Source: Natrinema thermotolerans DSM 11552
GTDB taxonomy: Archaea > Halobacteriota > Halobacteria > Halobacteriales > Natrialbaceae
Assembly: GCA_000337115.1 (NCBI GenBank)
Contig: AOIR01000033.1
Location: 1 to 64,000 of the forward strand
Length of the DNA stretch: 64,000 nucleotides
Direction: 5' to 3'
Positions 6,787 through 14,202 of this stretch are shown one piece after another. A program made the position numbers and the translations under genes. The stretch's first letter is position 1. Each line of letters opens with the position of its first letter. A model generated the notes under the pieces. That model was not told the origin of the DNA and did not search any database. It saw only the letters and a program-made list of their open reading frames with translations.

Positions 6787-7425
6787 TCACCCGAAGTACT
6801 CCGCGATGTTGTCGTAGACTTCGTCCATGTTGTCCCCCTCTTTGGCCGACAGAGGGACGGTCTTGTGTTGGGGGAACGCGTCTTCGATCCGTTTGACGCT
6901 CGAGTCGTCGAGGTCGGTCTTGTTCGCGAAGATGAGAACGGGGAGATCGCGCGATTCGATGATGCCGATCAGCATCGTGTTGACCTGTGTGATCGGATCC
7001 TCGGCGCTGTCTAAGACGTAGATGACGCCGTCGACGTCCTCGCGCAGCCAGTGCATCGCCTCGGCGACGCCTTCGGTCGCTTCCCGGGAGCGACGGATGG
7101 CGTCTTCCTCGTCCATATCGTCGGTGAACTCCTCGTAGTCGACCTTCGTCGTCACGCCGGGCGTGTCGACGATATCGATGGTCACCGTCTTGCCGTCGCG
7201 TTCGATCTCGACGTTTTCTTTCCGGCGTGCGCGTCGCGTCTCGTGCGGGACGTGACTCTCCGCGCCGACCGCGTCACCGGTCCAGTCACGCGCGATGCGG
7301 TTCGCGAGCGTCGTCTTTCCAGCGTTGGGCGGACCGTAGATACCGATTCGTTTGGGCTCCTGTTCCGAAAACAGGCGATCCGTTGCCCGAGAGATACTAT
7401 CTTTGAGTTCTGTGAACAGTCCCAT
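6787..7425 (-). CDS. oapA: Era-like GTP-binding protein OapA/ArvA
   Basis: This is a 212-residue small G protein with a full set of motifs. G1 is GPPNAGKT (about 31-38), G3 is DTPG (about 87-90) and G4 is NKTD (about 168-171), with a short helical N-terminus (MGLFTELKDSISRATDRLFS). It lacks the KH domain of bacterial Era. ATG 7425 is chosen; an in-frame GTG at 7443 would add six residues. It heads the oapABC operon and is transcribed away from the origin, with a CTTAAG box near 7483-7488. Confidence 0.93.
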   Translation of the reverse strand: MGLFTELKDSISRATDRLFSEQEPKRIGIYGPPNAGKTTLANRIARDWTGDAVGAESHVPHETRRARRKENVEIERDGKTVTIDIVDTPGVTTKVDYEEFTDDMDEEDAIRRSREATEGVAEAMHWLREDVDGVIYVLDSAEDPITQVNTMLIGIIESRDLPVLIFANKTDLDDSSVKRIEDAFPQHKTVPLSAKEGDNMDEVYDNIAEYFG

Positions 7426-7740
7426 CTGTGGGGCCTCCAGCACCGCGGGGTGCAGTTGCGCGTACTACAAACTGAACTCACTTAAGCCTACGTCAGACAT
7501 GTAGACAATTCGATGAACGGGAGTTGTCGGTCGGACGGACAGTGGTTTACCTAGAACTGACGAGAAGTGACTGATAATCGAGGGAAAACGGCAGTAGGAC
7601 TCGAGAACGCGTTCCTCTCCGAGCCGTTAGCATAGAACCGTGTTTCGAAGGGCAACATTGGTCTCTGGTAACGAGTACCCCGACACGGTATGTCGAACTG
7701 TATGTGATAAAGGACCACCTAGTAGGATCACGGAGCGGAG

Positions 7741-7770
7741 CCCCCCACCCCTTCGTTTCGAGTGGAGACC
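7741..7770 (-). repeat. Origin recognition box 1 (ORB, inverted)
   Basis: The minus strand reads TCCACTCGAAACGAAGGGGT followed by a G-run, the haloarchaeal ORB pattern bound by Orc1/Cdc6. Its last 20 bases are identical to those of the box at 8081-8100 but in inverted orientation, so the G-tails point away from the unwinding region. Confidence 0.92.
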
Positions 7771-7808
7771 GACGAACGGGGGAGTGGATCAAGAGACGGA
7801 GTCGGTGC

Positions 7809-7834
7809 GGATTCCCCCTTGACTTCCACTCGAG
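7809..7834 (-). repeat. Degenerate ORB-like element
   Basis: The minus strand reads GAGTGGAAGTCAAGGGGGAA. It keeps the TGGAA...AAGGGGG parts of an ORB with several mismatches, and lies just inside the first strong box. It may be a weak secondary site. Confidence 0.35.
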
Positions 7835-7879
7835 CCGCCGTTCGGGAGGGTCTCGAGGCCGAACGCGGCGGAGGGATCG

Positions 7880-8035
7880 GTTCTAGTAACTCGAAGACTA
7901 ATCTAGTAATTAGAGGAGCTATGAGGTGTCGATCTAGTAGGTACTAGCAATACCAAATAACCCTCTAGCAAAATACTGTTGTCTGCTAGTTCTGCGGATA
8001 CTGTTTCTAGTCTATCTAAATAAAGCTTTCCCCCC
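7880..8035. other. AT-rich duplex unwinding element with CTAG cluster
   Basis: This stretch is far richer in A+T than any flanking coding DNA and lies between the inverted ORBs, the expected place of first strand opening. It contains seven CTAG sites between 7883 and 8010 (at 7883, 7903, 7934, 7944, 7965, 7986 and 8007), three of them within TCTAGTA. CTAG is generally rare in haloarchaeal DNA and in the rest of this window. Confidence 0.85.
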
Positions 8036-8063
8036 AAAATGACCCCCTCCCCCCGCCCCACCC
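8032..8063. repeat. C-tract cluster facing a G-tract
   Basis: Five runs of four to six C occur at the edge of the unwinding region, followed 28 bases later by the G-run that ends ORB 2 (8091-8105). The minus strand of the C-tracts could form a G-quadruplex, or the two tracts could pair as a hairpin when single stranded. Confidence 0.6.
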
Positions 8064-8071
8064 TTGGACTG

Positions 8072-8105
8072 CGTTCCACCCGAAACGAAGGGGTGGGGGG
8101 GGGGG
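8072..8105 (+). repeat. Origin recognition box 2 (ORB)
   Basis: GTTCCACCCGAAACGAAGGG continues into an unusually long G-run. It matches the ORB consensus from memory and is the outward-facing partner of the box at 7741-7770. The tail of about a dozen Gs is longer than in the other boxes of this window. Confidence 0.92.
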
Positions 8106-8688: not shown

Positions 8689-10449
8689 ATGTCAGACGAC
8701 GATTCAGAGATCACGGGTTCGGACGAGGTCGAGGTCGACGGAGCGAACGGGTTCTCGGGAAACTTCGAGAACGCTGATCTCGGCGACGAAGAGTCGAATC
8801 AGGGCCTGTTCGATGATCTGTTGAGCGGCGAACCGATCTTCGAGAACAAGGAGGTCCTGCGACCGTCCTATACCCCACACGAACTCCCCCATCGGAGCGA
8901 TCAGATCAACAAGATGGCGACGATTCTGGTCGCCGCGCTCCGCGGGGAGACCCCCTCGAACATTCTCATCTACGGGAAAACCGGGACCGGCAAGACCGCG
9001 AGCGCGAAGTTCGTCAGCAAGGAACTCGAGAGTACATCACAGAAGTACTCGGTCCCCTGTGACGTCGAGTACATCAACTGCGAGGTCACCGACACCCAGT
9101 ACCGGGTCCTCGCACAGCTCGCGAACAAGTTCATCGAGAAAAACGAGGCTCGAATCGACGAGCGGATCGACGAACTCCAGTCCCTGCTGGACGATCTCGA
9201 GGCGTACGACCGCGCTATCGACGTCGATGCCTCGAGCGACGAGCCGGCGGACGGGACGGCGTCGGACCCGTTCGATTTCGTCTCCGAGGACGAGGTTGAC
9301 GGCGACGCCGAAACTTCGACTGGAACTGACATCGGACCGCAGTCCGGTGATTCTCCACTCGAAAAAGGGGGGTCCGGTGACCGAACAGATTCATCGTCCG
9401 AAACCGAACCGGCAGCACTCGAGAACGCTGCCGACGGGACCGAGGCGTCCGGAGATGGGGCCGCCGATCCGACGCCCGACCACCCGCTCGCATCGACGCC
9501 GTTCGACGACCGGGACGAGATCGAAGCCCGGATCGCGGGGTTACGAGACGACAAGGACTCCTTCGAAGAGGTACCGATGACCGGCTGGCCGACCGACCGG
9601 GTCTACAGCGTCTTCTTCGATGCCGTCGACTACGACGAGCGGGTCGTCGTCATCATGTTAGACGAGATCGACAAACTCGTCGAGAAAAGCGGTGACGACA
9701 CGCTGTACAATCTCTCGCGGATGAACTCCGAACTCGAGAACTCGCGGGTCTCGATCATCGGCATCTCGAACGACCTGAAGTTTACCGACTTCCTCGATCC
9801 CCGCGTGAAGTCCTCGCTGGGGGAAGAGGAGATCGTCTTCCCGCCCTACGACGCCAATCAACTGCGGGACATCCTCGAACATCGCTCCGAAGTCGCGTTC
9901 AAGGGGGGCGCGCTTTCAGGCGACGTGATCCCGCTGTGTGCGGCCTTCGCCGCACAGGAACACGGGGACGCACGGCGTGCGCTGGACCTGCTGCGGACCG
10001 CCGGCGAACTCGCCGAGCGCTCCCAGTCGGAGACGATCGTCGAGGAACACGTCCGACAGGCTCAGGACAAGATCGAACTCGATCGGGTCGTCGAGGTCGT
10101 TCGCACCCTCCCCACCCAGAGCAAACTCGTCCTTTTCGCGATCATCCTGCTCGAGAAAAACGGCGTCCACAGCATCAACACGGGCGAGGTGTTCAACATC
10201 TACAAACGGCTCTGCGAGGAGATCGACGCGGACGTCCTTACGCAGCGTCGCGTAACGGACCTCATCAGCGAACTCGACATGCTCGGCATCGTCAACGCCG
10301 TCGTCGTCTCGAAGGGCCGATACGGCCGGACCAAGGAGATCAGTCTCTCGGTCCCGCTCGAGGAGACGGAGGCCGTCCTCCTTTCCGATTCACGGCTTTC
10401 CGATATCGACGACGTCCAGCCGTTCGTACAGGCTCGGTTCGAGAACTGA
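8689..10449 (+). CDS. orc1: Orc1/Cdc6 origin initiator protein
   Basis: This 586-residue AAA+ initiator binds ORBs and loads the replicative helicase. Walker A GKTGTGKT lies at about 96-103, Walker B VVVIMLDEIDK follows the insert, a sensor-1 region contains IIGISNDLKF, and a winged-helix domain closes the protein (VLTQRRVTDLISELDMLGIV). It is longer than a typical archaeal Orc1 because of an acidic disordered insert of about 100 residues (roughly 177-277). An ORB-like sequence lies in the DNA of that insert. ATG 8689 is preferred; the frame extends upstream to TTG 8563. Placement next to inverted ORBs supports its role as the cognate initiator. Confidence 0.96.
   Translation: MSDDDSEITGSDEVEVDGANGFSGNFENADLGDEESNQGLFDDLLSGEPIFENKEVLRPSYTPHELPHRSDQINKMATILVAALRGETPSNILIYGKTGTGKTASAKFVSKELESTSQKYSVPCDVEYINCEVTDTQYRVLAQLANKFIEKNEARIDERIDELQSLLDDLEAYDRAIDVDASSDEPADGTASDPFDFVSEDEVDGDAETSTGTDIGPQSGDSPLEKGGSGDRTDSSSETEPAALENAADGTEASGDGAADPTPDHPLASTPFDDRDEIEARIAGLRDDKDSFEEVPMTGWPTDRVYSVFFDAVDYDERVVVIMLDEIDKLVEKSGDDTLYNLSRMNSELENSRVSIIGISNDLKFTDFLDPRVKSSLGEEEIVFPPYDANQLRDILEHRSEVAFKGGALSGDVIPLCAAFAAQEHGDARRALDLLRTAGELAERSQSETIVEEHVRQAQDKIELDRVVEVVRTLPTQSKLVLFAIILLEKNGVHSINTGEVFNIYKRLCEEIDADVLTQRRVTDLISELDMLGIVNAVVVSKGRYGRTKEISLSVPLEETEAVLLSDSRLSDIDDVQPFVQARFEN
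9351..9375 (+). repeat. ORB-like element inside orc1 coding sequence
   Basis: CTCCACTCGAAAAAGGGGGG within the acidic insert of orc1 closely follows the box at 8653. It is flanked by a 9-bp direct repeat GTCCGGTGA (9342-9350 and 9372-9380). The region encodes SGDSPLEKGGSGD. Confidence 0.6.
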
Positions 10450-10536: not shown

Positions 10537-11496
10537 TCAGGACCGGTAGCGACCGGCAGCGAGGACGGCACCGCCGGCGAGTCCGGCGATACCGGTCGCG
10601 CCGGCGACTGCCCCACCGAGTCCTGTCCCTGACGCTCCGGAGCCAGCAGCCGACGCGGTCGTCGCGGGAGCGGCCGAACCCGCAGGCGAGCCGGGGACGA
10701 CCATGCCGCCCAGGAAGCTGTCGACGGTCAGTCGAACGTGGCCAAGCCACGGGATCCGGTACATGGCCTTGCCGGTCACCCACTCGGGTTTGACGACGGT
10801 CGTTCTGGCACCCGACCCCGGCAACTGATCGTAGCCGGGGTTGTTGTCGCCTTTCGTAATGAACCCAGCATAGGGAGCGGGACAGGACGCGATCTCTTCG
10901 CAGGTCGCGCCGTTGACGAACTCCTCGCTGGCCTTCGTTTCCACCCACCTCTCGTTCTTCTCGACCCAGAAGTGGGCGCGATGGATTATCGGCGTTGTTT
11001 CGGTCACGCCGTTCGGCCGGAAGACGATCACGTCGCCGGGATTCCCGAACTCCGAGTAGCCGGTTTCCTCGCCCCGCTGCATCGTGACGATGCCGGTGTC
11101 GCCGACGGCCCCGTCGCCGGTGAACCGCCCGTCCTCGACGATGAAGATCAGGTCGCCCCTGTGCATGTTCGGTTCCATGCTCGGACTTTCGACGGCGACC
11201 AACGGCGGCCAGAGTCCGCTGACCGCGAACAACAGGAGTCCGACGACGGCAACGAGAGCAACGCTGCTCGCGACGTCGCGAACCAACACGACGTTCTCGT
11301 CGTCGGTCTCGAGGAACCAGCGGACGATGCCGTCGTCCTCGATCGTGACGCCGTCGCCACTGGCGTGTTCGCGGTCACCGCGCTGCTGTGAACTCTCGGC
11401 GTTGTCATCCGGCGAGTCGCGGCCGGGACTCGCCGCCGACCGCTCGCGATCGTCGCCGGAATCGCCGGGGGGATCCCCGGAATCAGAACCGCTCAT
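10537..11496 (-). CDS. S26 signal peptidase I, paralogue A
   Basis: This 319-residue type I signal peptidase has a disordered acidic N-terminus, a transmembrane helix (SSVALVAVVGLLLFAVSGLW) and the catalytic Ser in VESPSMEPNM. Box D His is in PIIHRAHFWVE and the KGDNN motif has the conserved Asp, the archaeal Ser-His-Asp arrangement. The C-terminus holds a second hydrophobic Gly/Ala-rich segment ending AAGRYRS. It removes signal peptides from Sec substrates outside the membrane. A close paralogue lies directly upstream on the same strand. ATG 11496 is chosen over an upstream in-frame start. Confidence 0.93.
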   Translation of the reverse strand: MSGSDSGDPPGDSGDDRERSAASPGRDSPDDNAESSQQRGDREHASGDGVTIEDDGIVRWFLETDDENVVLVRDVASSVALVAVVGLLLFAVSGLWPPLVAVESPSMEPNMHRGDLIFIVEDGRFTGDGAVGDTGIVTMQRGEETGYSEFGNPGDVIVFRPNGVTETTPIIHRAHFWVEKNERWVETKASEEFVNGATCEEIASCPAPYAGFITKGDNNPGYDQLPGSGARTTVVKPEWVTGKAMYRIPWLGHVRLTVDSFLGGMVVPGSPAGSAAPATTASAAGSGASGTGLGGAVAGATGIAGLAGGAVLAAGRYRS

Positions 11497-11588
11497 CGTG
11501 CCCCGTTTTGCCGGGGCCGCCAATCAACTTTCCGTTCGTCGCGACTGCCAATCGCCGCGACGGATCGTAGTGCCCGGCACGAAACGTC

Positions 11589-12464
11589 CTACGGATCGCG
11601 GCCGTCGGCAGCCGCGGCAAACAGCGCGATCGCGACCAGTCCTGCGACGACTGCGACGCCCGCCGGACCCACGCCCAGCAGCGAACGGGCGGAATCCACC
11701 GCCAGCCGGATCTCGCCGAGCCACGGGAGCCGAACCATCGCTTTGCTCCGGACCCACTCGGGTTTGACGACGGTCGTGTCCGCCCCGGACCGCGGGATCT
11801 GATCGTATGCTGGGTTGGCGTCGCCTTTCGTGATGAACCCGTCGTAGGGTGCCGGACACGACGGGATCTCGGTACAGGTCGCGCCGTTGACGAACGCCGG
11901 GTCGGCCTTCGTCTCGATCCAGCGTTCCCCTTTCTCGACCCGAAACGCGACCCGGTGGATCGTCGGGGTCTGATGCGGGTCGCCGTTCGGTCTGAAAACG
12001 ACGACGTCGCCCGCATCGCCGAGCGTCTCGTGGCCCGTCTCCAGTCCGCGCTCGCGCGTGACGATGCCGGTTCCGCCGACGGCACCGTCGCCGGCGAATC
12101 GCCCCTCGTCGACGACGATCACGAGATCTCCCCGCTCGAGGTGGGGTTCCATACTGCCGCTCTCGACGGCGACCAGCGGCGGCCAGGTACCGGCGACGGC
12201 AAACAGCAGGAGGCCGACGACGCCGACGATCGCGAGGCTCGCAGCGATATCCCGACCCACGGCTGCCGCTCGGTCGTCGGCCTCGAGGAACCAGCGGACG
12301 ATCCCGTCGTCGATCGTGACGCCTTCGCCCGGGCGGGGACGGGACGCGAGTCGGTCGTCGGCTCCGTCCCGCTCGGCCGCCGAATCGGACACGTCGGCGG
12401 TCGGCGGATCGTCGGGTGGCCCCGATCGGCCGCGGTCGCTCTCGCCGGCGTCGGGCCCGTCCAT
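11589..12464 (-). CDS. S26 signal peptidase I, paralogue B
   Basis: This 291-residue signal peptidase is a tandem copy of the next gene. It has the same TM-anchor design, catalytic Ser in VESGSMEPHL, His in PTIHRVAFRVE and Asp in TKGDANPAYDQ, then a C-terminal TM helix (LLGVGPAGVAVVAGLVAIALFA). All catalytic residues remain, so both copies are probably active. Divergence is highest at the two ends, which could set different substrates. It is divergent from the PolD small subunit gene across 178 bases. ATG 12464 fits the acidic N-terminus MDGPDAGESD better than the longer frame. Confidence 0.92.
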   Translation of the reverse strand: MDGPDAGESDRGRSGPPDDPPTADVSDSAAERDGADDRLASRPRPGEGVTIDDGIVRWFLEADDRAAAVGRDIAASLAIVGVVGLLLFAVAGTWPPLVAVESGSMEPHLERGDLVIVVDEGRFAGDGAVGGTGIVTRERGLETGHETLGDAGDVVVFRPNGDPHQTPTIHRVAFRVEKGERWIETKADPAFVNGATCTEIPSCPAPYDGFITKGDANPAYDQIPRSGADTTVVKPEWVRSKAMVRLPWLGEIRLAVDSARSLLGVGPAGVAVVAGLVAIALFAAAADGRDP

Positions 12465-12642
12465 TGACGAGCAGTTGCGTCGAGTCGCGCATGAACCTTC
12501 CGGCGGCGGCCGGTCGGTCGACCGATCGCTCGTCCGGCTTCGGACGAACCCGTCCCGGCGACGGAGCAGCCCGATCGGTCGCCGGTTGCCGGCGGACCCG
12601 GCATTCGCTACCCTTTTTGTTCCGCTCGCGAATGTGACGGCT

Positions 12643-14202
12643 GTGCCACTCGAGGCCCCCGCGCGGATCGTCGGCGAACTCACGAGCCGCGGCTACAACG
12701 CCGAACGCGAGGCCGTGACGCGGCTCGCCGGGGCCTCGGATCCCGGTGCGGCCCTCGAACGCGTCCTCGAGGCGGTCCCCGAGGACGCCTTAGTCGTCCG
12801 GACCGAACACGTCGAGGCGGCGCTCTCGGCGGACGCCCCCGACGCCGCTCGTGCCGAGCCGACCGCCGTTCCCGACGGCGATTCGACCCCCTCCGTTTCA
12901 ACTGGAACCGACCCGGACCCGGGCGACGAACCGGCCGGAGCCACTCCAGTTGAAACGGGGGGGTCCCTGCCCGCCGATCGCTCCGTCGATCCCGCGAAAC
13001 GCGCTCTCGAGATCGTCGGCGACATGACCGGCCAGAGTACCGGGACGGGCGAGTACGAGGACTTCGTCTCGGTCTTTCGCGACCGGCTCGACCGGCTGGG
13101 CGGCAAGCTCAAGGGACGGGTCAACCACCGGCCGGCGACCGCCATTCAGGACATGCCCGGCGGCAGCGAGGTCGCGATGGTCGGACTGGTCAACGATATC
13201 CGATCGACTGCCAGCGGCCACTGGCTGATCGAACTCGAGGACGCCACGGGAACCTTTCCGTGGCTGGTGATGAAGGATCGGGAGTACGTCGATCTGGTCG
13301 ACGAGCTGCTCTGTGACGAGGTGCTGGCGATGGAGGGGACCTTGGCGGACGACTCGGGAATCGCCTTCGTCGACTCGCTGCATTTCCCCGACGTTCCTCG
13401 GACCCACGAGCCGTCGACGGCCGACCGTCACGTGCAGGCAGCGCTGATCAGCGACGTCCACGTCGGCAGTCAGGAGTTCATGGCCGACGCCTGGAACGCC
13501 TTCGCGGACTGGCTTCACACCGCGGAAGCGGAACACGTCGAGTACCTGCTGCTGGCCGGCGACATGGTCGAGGGCGTCGGCGTCTATCCCGATCAGGACG
13601 AGGAACTCGACATCGTCGACATCTACGAACAGTACGAGGCCTTCAGCGAACATCTCAAGAAGATCCCCGGCGACATCGAGATCGTCATGATCCCGGGCAA
13701 CCACGACGCGGTCCGACTGGCCGAACCCCAGCCCGGCTTCGACGAGGAACTGCGCGAGATCATGTCCGCCCACGATCCCCGGATCGTGAGCAACCCCTCG
13801 ATGGTGACCCTCGAGGGCGTCTCCGTCCTGATGTACCACGGCGTCAGTCTGGACGAGGTCATCGCGGAACTGCCCGAGGACAAAGCCAGCTACGACGACC
13901 CCCACAAGGCCATGTATCACCTCCTCAAGAAGCGCCACGTCGCGCCGCAGTTCGGGGGTCACACGCGACTCGCGCCCGAGGAGGAGGATTATCTCGTCAT
14001 CGACGAGGTACCCGATATCTTCCATACCGGTCACGTCCACAAGCTCGGCTTCGGCAAGTACCACGACGTGCTGGCGATCAACTCCGGCTGCTGGCAGGCC
14101 CAGACGGACTTCCAGAAGAGCGTCAACATCGATCCCGACGCCGGCTTCGCGCCGATCGTCGATCTAGACACGCTCGACGTGACCGTCCAGAAGTTCAGTT
14201 AG
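12643..14202 (+). CDS. polD1: DNA polymerase D small subunit (DP1), exonuclease
   Basis: This 519-residue DP1 subunit of archaeal family D DNA polymerase is the Mre11-like 3'-5' proofreading nuclease. The N-terminal helical domain (PARIVGELTSRGYN) is joined by a Pro/Asp-rich linker to an OB-like domain (about 160-240). The calcineurin-type phosphoesterase follows, with ISDVHVGSQEF (about 268), GDMVEG (about 305), PGNHDAVR (about 350), YHGVS and HTGHVH (about 460). GTG 12643 is chosen because a pyrimidine-rich TATA-like box lies about 28 bases before it. The linker DNA holds an inverted pair of ORB-like motifs. Confidence 0.95.
   Translation: MPLEAPARIVGELTSRGYNAEREAVTRLAGASDPGAALERVLEAVPEDALVVRTEHVEAALSADAPDAARAEPTAVPDGDSTPSVSTGTDPDPGDEPAGATPVETGGSLPADRSVDPAKRALEIVGDMTGQSTGTGEYEDFVSVFRDRLDRLGGKLKGRVNHRPATAIQDMPGGSEVAMVGLVNDIRSTASGHWLIELEDATGTFPWLVMKDREYVDLVDELLCDEVLAMEGTLADDSGIAFVDSLHFPDVPRTHEPSTADRHVQAALISDVHVGSQEFMADAWNAFADWLHTAEAEHVEYLLLAGDMVEGVGVYPDQDEELDIVDIYEQYEAFSEHLKKIPGDIEIVMIPGNHDAVRLAEPQPGFDEELREIMSAHDPRIVSNPSMVTLEGVSVLMYHGVSLDEVIAELPEDKASYDDPHKAMYHLLKKRHVAPQFGGHTRLAPEEEDYLVIDEVPDIFHTGHVHKLGFGKYHDVLAINSGCWQAQTDFQKSVNIDPDAGFAPIVDLDTLDVTVQKFS
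12885..12966. repeat. Inverted pair of ORB-like motifs inside polD1
   Basis: The minus strand of 12885-12908 reads GTTCCAGTTGAAACGGAGGG plus GGTC. The plus strand of 12943-12966 reads ACTCCAGTTGAAACGGGGGG plus GTCC. The arms are inverted and about 34 bases apart, in the disordered linker codons. Both have the ORB pattern but with TTGAAAC instead of the TCGAAAC or CCGAAAC of the oriC boxes. Confidence 0.6.

Follow-up and report, generated by a model that had tools for sequence, protein, structure and literature searches.

Organization of the oriC1 locus

The window, which is the whole stretch of 64 kb analysed here, carries an orc1/cdc6 initiator gene, a conserved GTPase gene and, between them, a region bounded by two ORB elements (Table 1). 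Haloarchaeal oriC1 is characterized by inverted ORBs with G-strings, an AT-rich middle and an adjoining orc1/cdc6 gene, and all of these are found here. Because the inverted ORBs with their G-strings surround the stretch and orc1/cdc6 lies downstream, the stretch is oriC1, and the name of origin unwinding element, which an earlier sequence-only reading had given to it, is appropriate for DNA placed between these two ORBs and 5' of orc1. Regular expressions and a profile gave the positions of the ORBs and of the core. The left ORB agrees with the published description of ORB and G-string in haloarchaeal oriC1 (PMC3936714). On the other side of orc1, the minus strand holds two adjacent and similar reading frames (10537-12683), which look like tandem signal-peptidase-like paralogs.

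Table 1. Features of the oriC1 region, with offsets counted from the CGG of the conserved core
Feature	Position in window	Strand	Offset	Remarks
Conserved GTPase gene	6787..7443	-		Opposite side of oriC1; served for the tree
Left ORB and C/G-string (ccccccaccccttcgtttcgagtggag)	7741..7767	+		Regular expression, sequence; same element in relatives
CTAG sites of the cluster	7883, 7903, 7934, 7944, 7965, 7986, 8007	strand-neutral		Sequence count
CTAG	7883..7886		-112	Among compared genera, window genus only
Ladder site	7903..7906		-92	Family flank TCTAGTAAC; 17/18 Natrialbaceae genera
Ladder site	7934..7937		-61	Family flank TTCTAGTAG; 18/18 genera
Ladder site	7944..7947		-51	Family flank CTAGTAACT (CTAGCAAT in window); 18/18 genera
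Ladder site	7965..7968		-30/-29	Family flank TCTAGTAAAA; 18/18 genera
Conserved oriC1 core GCTAGTTCTGCGGATACTGTTTCTA	7985..8009	+		CGG at 7995-7997; profile match
Ladder site	7986..7989		-9	Edge of conserved core; 16/18 genera; overlaps anchoring profile
CTAG	8007..8010		+12	Among compared genera, window genus only
Conserved ATAAA	8020..8024	+		About 26 bases 3' of core CGG
Inner C-rich arm (ccccctcccccc)	8043..8054	+		G-rich partner at about 7777-7784
Right ORB and G-string (ttccacccgaaacgaaggggtgggg...)	8074..8105	-		Regular expression, sequence
orc1/cdc6 initiator gene	8689..10449	+		NCBIfam NF001625, 652.6 bits; Pfam Cdc6_C

CTAG cluster of the window

The sequence-only reading had counted seven CTAG sites within 7883-8010, three of them as TCTAGTA, and two more outside the cluster, and the count agrees in every part: TCTAGTA starts at 7882, 7902 and 7933, and the outer sites lie at 7551 and 7719. 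It had also estimated that only a few dozen sites exist in the rest of the 64 kb. The whole window contains 34 CTAG, while 78.6 +/- 8.6 are expected from dinucleotide shuffles, so the motif is indeed avoided. For the stretch 7880-8035 (156 bases, 60% AT) its dinucleotide composition predicts 2.4 CTAG, and 7 are present (P = 0.0015). Elsewhere in the window the density is 0.39 per kb, and other AT-rich stretches of 156 bases have at most 2 each. The window, its flanks and the shuffles form the background of these comparisons.

The draft genome G000 (3.9 Mb) has seven places with three CTAG within about 64 bases, and three of the seven are found upstream of one of the seven orc1/cdc6-type genes (P about 7e-7 under random placement). 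One cluster upstream of an orc1/cdc6 paralog, at L365:1499-1553 (G000 C36:11098-11152), packs seven CTAG into 55 bases, and another paralog is preceded by the cluster at L377:2142-2161 (G000 C20:8641-8660). The remaining triples of this genome (C32, C50, C63 and C64) have no orc gene with Pfam Cdc6_C within 1.5 kb downstream.

Conservation and helical phasing of the CTAG ladder

Five of the seven window sites, which form the ladder, keep their places in 16-18 of the 18 genera of Natrialbaceae, and only the site at -9 overlaps the profile used for anchoring. In this family the modal tetramer reaches 0.80-0.93 at the ladder sites vs 0.21 for the median tetramer. The pattern CTAG-N27-CTAG-N6-CTAG is present in most Natrialbaceae genomes, mostly as a single copy; elsewhere it occurs in few genomes, several of which also have it at an origin. 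Four of the five ladder sites carry an asymmetric 3' flank TA(A/G) on one strand and in the same orientation. This is more than methylation of CTAG requires, so a protein-binding role is possible. The cluster is almost certainly constrained and not accidental.

Nine genomes (L347-L355), which are G005 and G202 of the window genus (g1) and seven of genus g6, have the ladder and the ORBs away from orc1, at a separation of about 160 kb in two of them. The ladder thus stays with the ORBs where oriC1 and orc1 are separated, and is an element of the origin rather than of the orc1 promoter. The separated origins of G005 and G202 have kept their place next to the GTPase gene.

The distances between the seven window sites are 20, 31, 10, 21, 21 and 21 bp, which correspond to one, two or three whole helical turns, and R is 0.97 at 10.4 bp (p about 1e-4). 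The phasing of the five-site family ladder alone has p = 0.0025. The sites at -112 and +12, peculiar to the window genus, are in phase, and some other sites of the family are out of phase. The phasing is a single ancestral arrangement, not many independent ones. CTAG sites outside Natrialbaceae have no 10.4-bp phase (R 0.19), which rules out phasing as a rule of the class. The spacing of CTAG sites by whole helical turns is apparently new.

Conserved core and apparent register of the left ORB

The oriC1 core, which across the class reads CTACGGATAYTGTT...ATAAA (in profile form ctaGTA.TaCGGATaTTGTT...ATAAA), matches 135 of 170 loci at a profile cut-off of 14, loci without the methyltransferase (MTase) included, and the highest score of shuffled sequences is 6.1. 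Such a class-wide conserved core is apparently new. Together with ATAAA (7985-8024) it is possibly a counterpart of the Sulfolobus ucm element or else a leftward promoter, in which ATAAA would be the TATA box on the other strand and the start would lie near the core.

The distance from the left ORB to the core CGG is quantised, a stronger regularity than the phasing of the ladder. It takes values of 98-100, 107-110, 117-120, 127-130, 137-141, 148-149 and 159, and in Natrialbaceae of 217-221, 229-232, 239-242, 250-253 and 273, with few values between steps (180, 188, 202 and 213, once each, in other families). In the window this span is 7754-7997, and the loci of the class comparison are L177-L355. 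The steps are of about 10.4 bp, and the distance has changed at least 36 times on a tree built from the GTPase gene next to the origin (127 loci), a quick tree with many weak branches. The test took pairs on disjoint paths whose distances are more than 3 bases apart; these 29 pairs differ by 9-12 bases (16 pairs), 17-23 (7), 30-31 (2), 71, 84, 94 and 119, a periodicity matched by 0 of 20000 random draws. The distance from the core to the right ORB (87-106) shows no quantisation, which makes it a built-in negative control for the left side.

The stepwise distances suggest that the left ORB and the core are tied to a fixed helical register, which seems independent of MTase status. No earlier report of this register was found in the literature searched, outside which subscription papers mostly lie. 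For models of origin opening by Orc1 in archaea, the register sets a quantitative constraint.

Methyltransferase and CTAG enrichment at origins

The conserved orphan CTAG methyltransferase, invoked by the sequence-only reading, has its counterpart in the window genome as a protein of 348 aa with an N6_N4_Mtase domain, a putative orphan of the CTAG (Zim) type. Its specificity for CTAG is probable from its family and from Natrinema methylomes (PMC12160562). Homologs of the Zim-type MTase are found in 333 of 391 genomes of the class (E <= 1e-20). From these 391 genomes 160 oriC1 regions were taken; for 50 regions the genome has no detectable MTase of the Zim type. CTAG was counted from -120 to +80 around the core.

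Enrichment at related oriC1 loci, which the sequence-only reading had set as its own test, is present in relatives, and Natrialbaceae have 6.33 CTAG per origin vs 1.75 expected. MTase-positive genera of the family labelled f4, except g30, have 1.69 vs 0.81 expected, and MTase-positive members of other families 2.76 vs 0.99. MTase-negative origins have 0.38 vs 0.51 in g30 and 0.12 vs 0.62 in the rest of f4; they are similar in AT content to the enriched origins and keep the core, with CTAG almost absent. The flanks of origins have 0.0-0.5 CTAG per kb, and seven control palindromes of equal composition do not follow the CTAG pattern across these groups.

The contrast is strong as raw counts, but the MTase state changes 4-8 times on the GTPase tree and yields 3 supported independent pairs, so the correlation is weaker evidence than it appears. 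A tight link between MTase and cluster was tested on the 127-locus tree and, with 3 supported pairs, is not established. Seven MTase-positive genomes of g30 (Halorubrum-type) have 0.14 CTAG per origin vs 0.55 expected. Genus g5 (L323-L326) has the MTase, but upstream of its orc1 neither an ORB pair nor the core nor the ladder can be recognised.

Possible functions of the ladder

By its position, the conservation of each site, the whole-turn spacing, the presence of the MTase gene and the retention of the ladder with the origin where orc1 lies elsewhere, the cluster is a conserved and most likely functional part of oriC1. The ladder spans the strand-opening region flanked by the Orc1-binding ORBs, on one face of the helix and beside the conserved core, and its sites would be m4C targets of the Zim-type orphan CTAG methyltransferase of the host. 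If these sites are methylated in the cell, replication would leave them hemimethylated, and the hemimethylated state may delay or license the re-opening of the origin. The readout could be a SeqA-like protein that binds the phased sites cooperatively, or an effect of m4C on melting. We know of no SeqA-like reader.

This role of the ladder, in which target sites left hemimethylated by replication influence how oriC1 re-opens, through a phased reader or through duplex stability, is proposed tentatively and given a little under an even chance. The conservation, the enrichment in MTase-bearing groups, the phasing, the binding of the ladder to the origin, the clusters at orc paralogs and the m4C in CTAG of Natrinema count for it. 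The 3 pairs, the CTAG-poor MTase-positive g30, genus g5, the unphased CTAG elsewhere, the CTAGTAA flanks, the possible undermethylation of low-GC DNA, the lack of a known reader and the RM-null strain of Haloferax volcanii without a growth defect (a species that can do without its origins) count against it. Since few independent events stand behind the correlation, methylation control of oriC1 firing is plausible but unproven.

The main rival does not depend on methylation, and it is possible, though somewhat unlikely: the ladder would be a set of direct repeats (TCTAGTAA) for a DUE-binding protein, or for opening of one strand, and Zim methylation would be incidental or modulating. Bacterial DnaA-trios, in which TAG triplets are needed in one strand for opening, give an analogy. 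The TA(A/G) flank shared in one orientation by four of five sites, the placement of the sites on one helix face and the neighbouring core, present also in MTase-minus origins, agree with such repeats; however, the CTAG enrichment seen beyond Natrialbaceae comes with neither phasing nor an evident TAA flank, and MTase-lacking origins retain the core and AT richness with almost no CTAG.

That ladder methylation regulates transcription of orc1/cdc6 and not the origin itself is improbable. Further CTAG clusters lie 5' of orc paralogs, and in H. lucertense the DNA near promoters is rich in CTAG (PMC11001535), but some 680-800 bases separate the ladder from the start of orc1, and in nine genomes ladder and ORBs do not adjoin orc1; these separated origins make such transcriptional control unlikely as the main role. 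There is very little chance that the cluster is a passive leftover, in which AT-rich non-coding DNA escapes the genomic avoidance of CTAG and is inherited by descent. AT richness alone predicts about 2.4 CTAG in the stretch and members of the family share ancestry, yet other AT-rich windows have no more than 2, MTase-minus origins are equally AT-rich and unenriched, and the conservation of the CTAG tetramer across the family (0.80-0.93 vs a median of 0.21) already contradicts this explanation.

A broader picture, which is doubtful and goes further than the methylation role of the ladder, is that oriC1 works as a helically registered machine, in which the face of left ORB and core is fixed across the class and the m4C-CTAG ladder of Natrialbaceae, placed on one face between the two, would be read after replication by a SeqA counterpart that blocks re-initiation. 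How over-initiation is prevented in archaea is an open question, and so, according to the literature, is what the most conserved orphan methylase of haloarchaea does (PMC6471742). A defined ladder in a genus with mapped CTAG methylation makes the role of this methylase directly testable.

Comparison with known systems

The main idea, CTAG clusters at the origin and control by methylation, is not new: Blow et al. (2016) reported that haloarchaeal CTAG clusters upstream of orc1/cdc6 correlate with a conserved MTase, an orphan of m4C type, and suggested a control of replication (PMC4752239). The window likewise has a CTAG cluster in non-coding DNA 5' of orc1/cdc6 and the MTase gene in the same genome, so that motif, kind of locus, MTase family and proposed role are alike (PMC4752239, Fig 6D). 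While that study used motif density over 50 kb and correlation, the present analysis resolves single sites, ladder, phasing, core and ORB register, shows the ladder to be conserved site by site across the family and finds few independent events behind the correlation. In the survey of Fullmer et al. (2019), 174 of 217 genomes had the MTase (PMC6471742). In H. volcanii, Ouellette et al. (2018) found CTAG enrichment near oriC2 only, and the RM-null strain, zim included, has no growth defect (PMC5867850). For Natrinema pallidum there are measurements of m4C in CTAG (PMC12160562). The unmethylated CTAG of H. lucertense concentrate in low-GC regions (PMC11001535), so the window stretch might be undermethylated.

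The Haloarcula hispanica oriC1 resembles that of the window in its inverted ORBs with G-strings, inner G-rich inverted repeat, AT-rich centre and adjoining orc1/cdc6, and the inner C-rich arm of the window resembles its enhancer repeat; the available part of that description (PMC3936714) makes no mention of CTAG sites, a conserved core or a helical register. The Sulfolobus ucm element, which is bound by UBP, is like the window core a short conserved element in the unwinding region between two ORBs. It belongs to another lineage, where it is needed for origin activity (PMC12141716), and its likeness to the candidate core is one of position.

Escherichia coli Dam/SeqA and the window both have short palindromic MTase sites clustered in the origin. 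SeqA requires GATC pairs on one helix face, two to three turns apart (PMC5145175). One-face, whole-turn spacing is present in the window, with CTAG as the predicted m4C target, whereas the E. coli oriC has m6A in GATC at unphased sites, so this spacing is not strictly a defining property (PMC5145175). The likeness to bacterial oriC GATC clusters, which the sequence-only reading had drawn from their density, is stronger than first thought, since whole turns of the helix separate the sites of the ladder.
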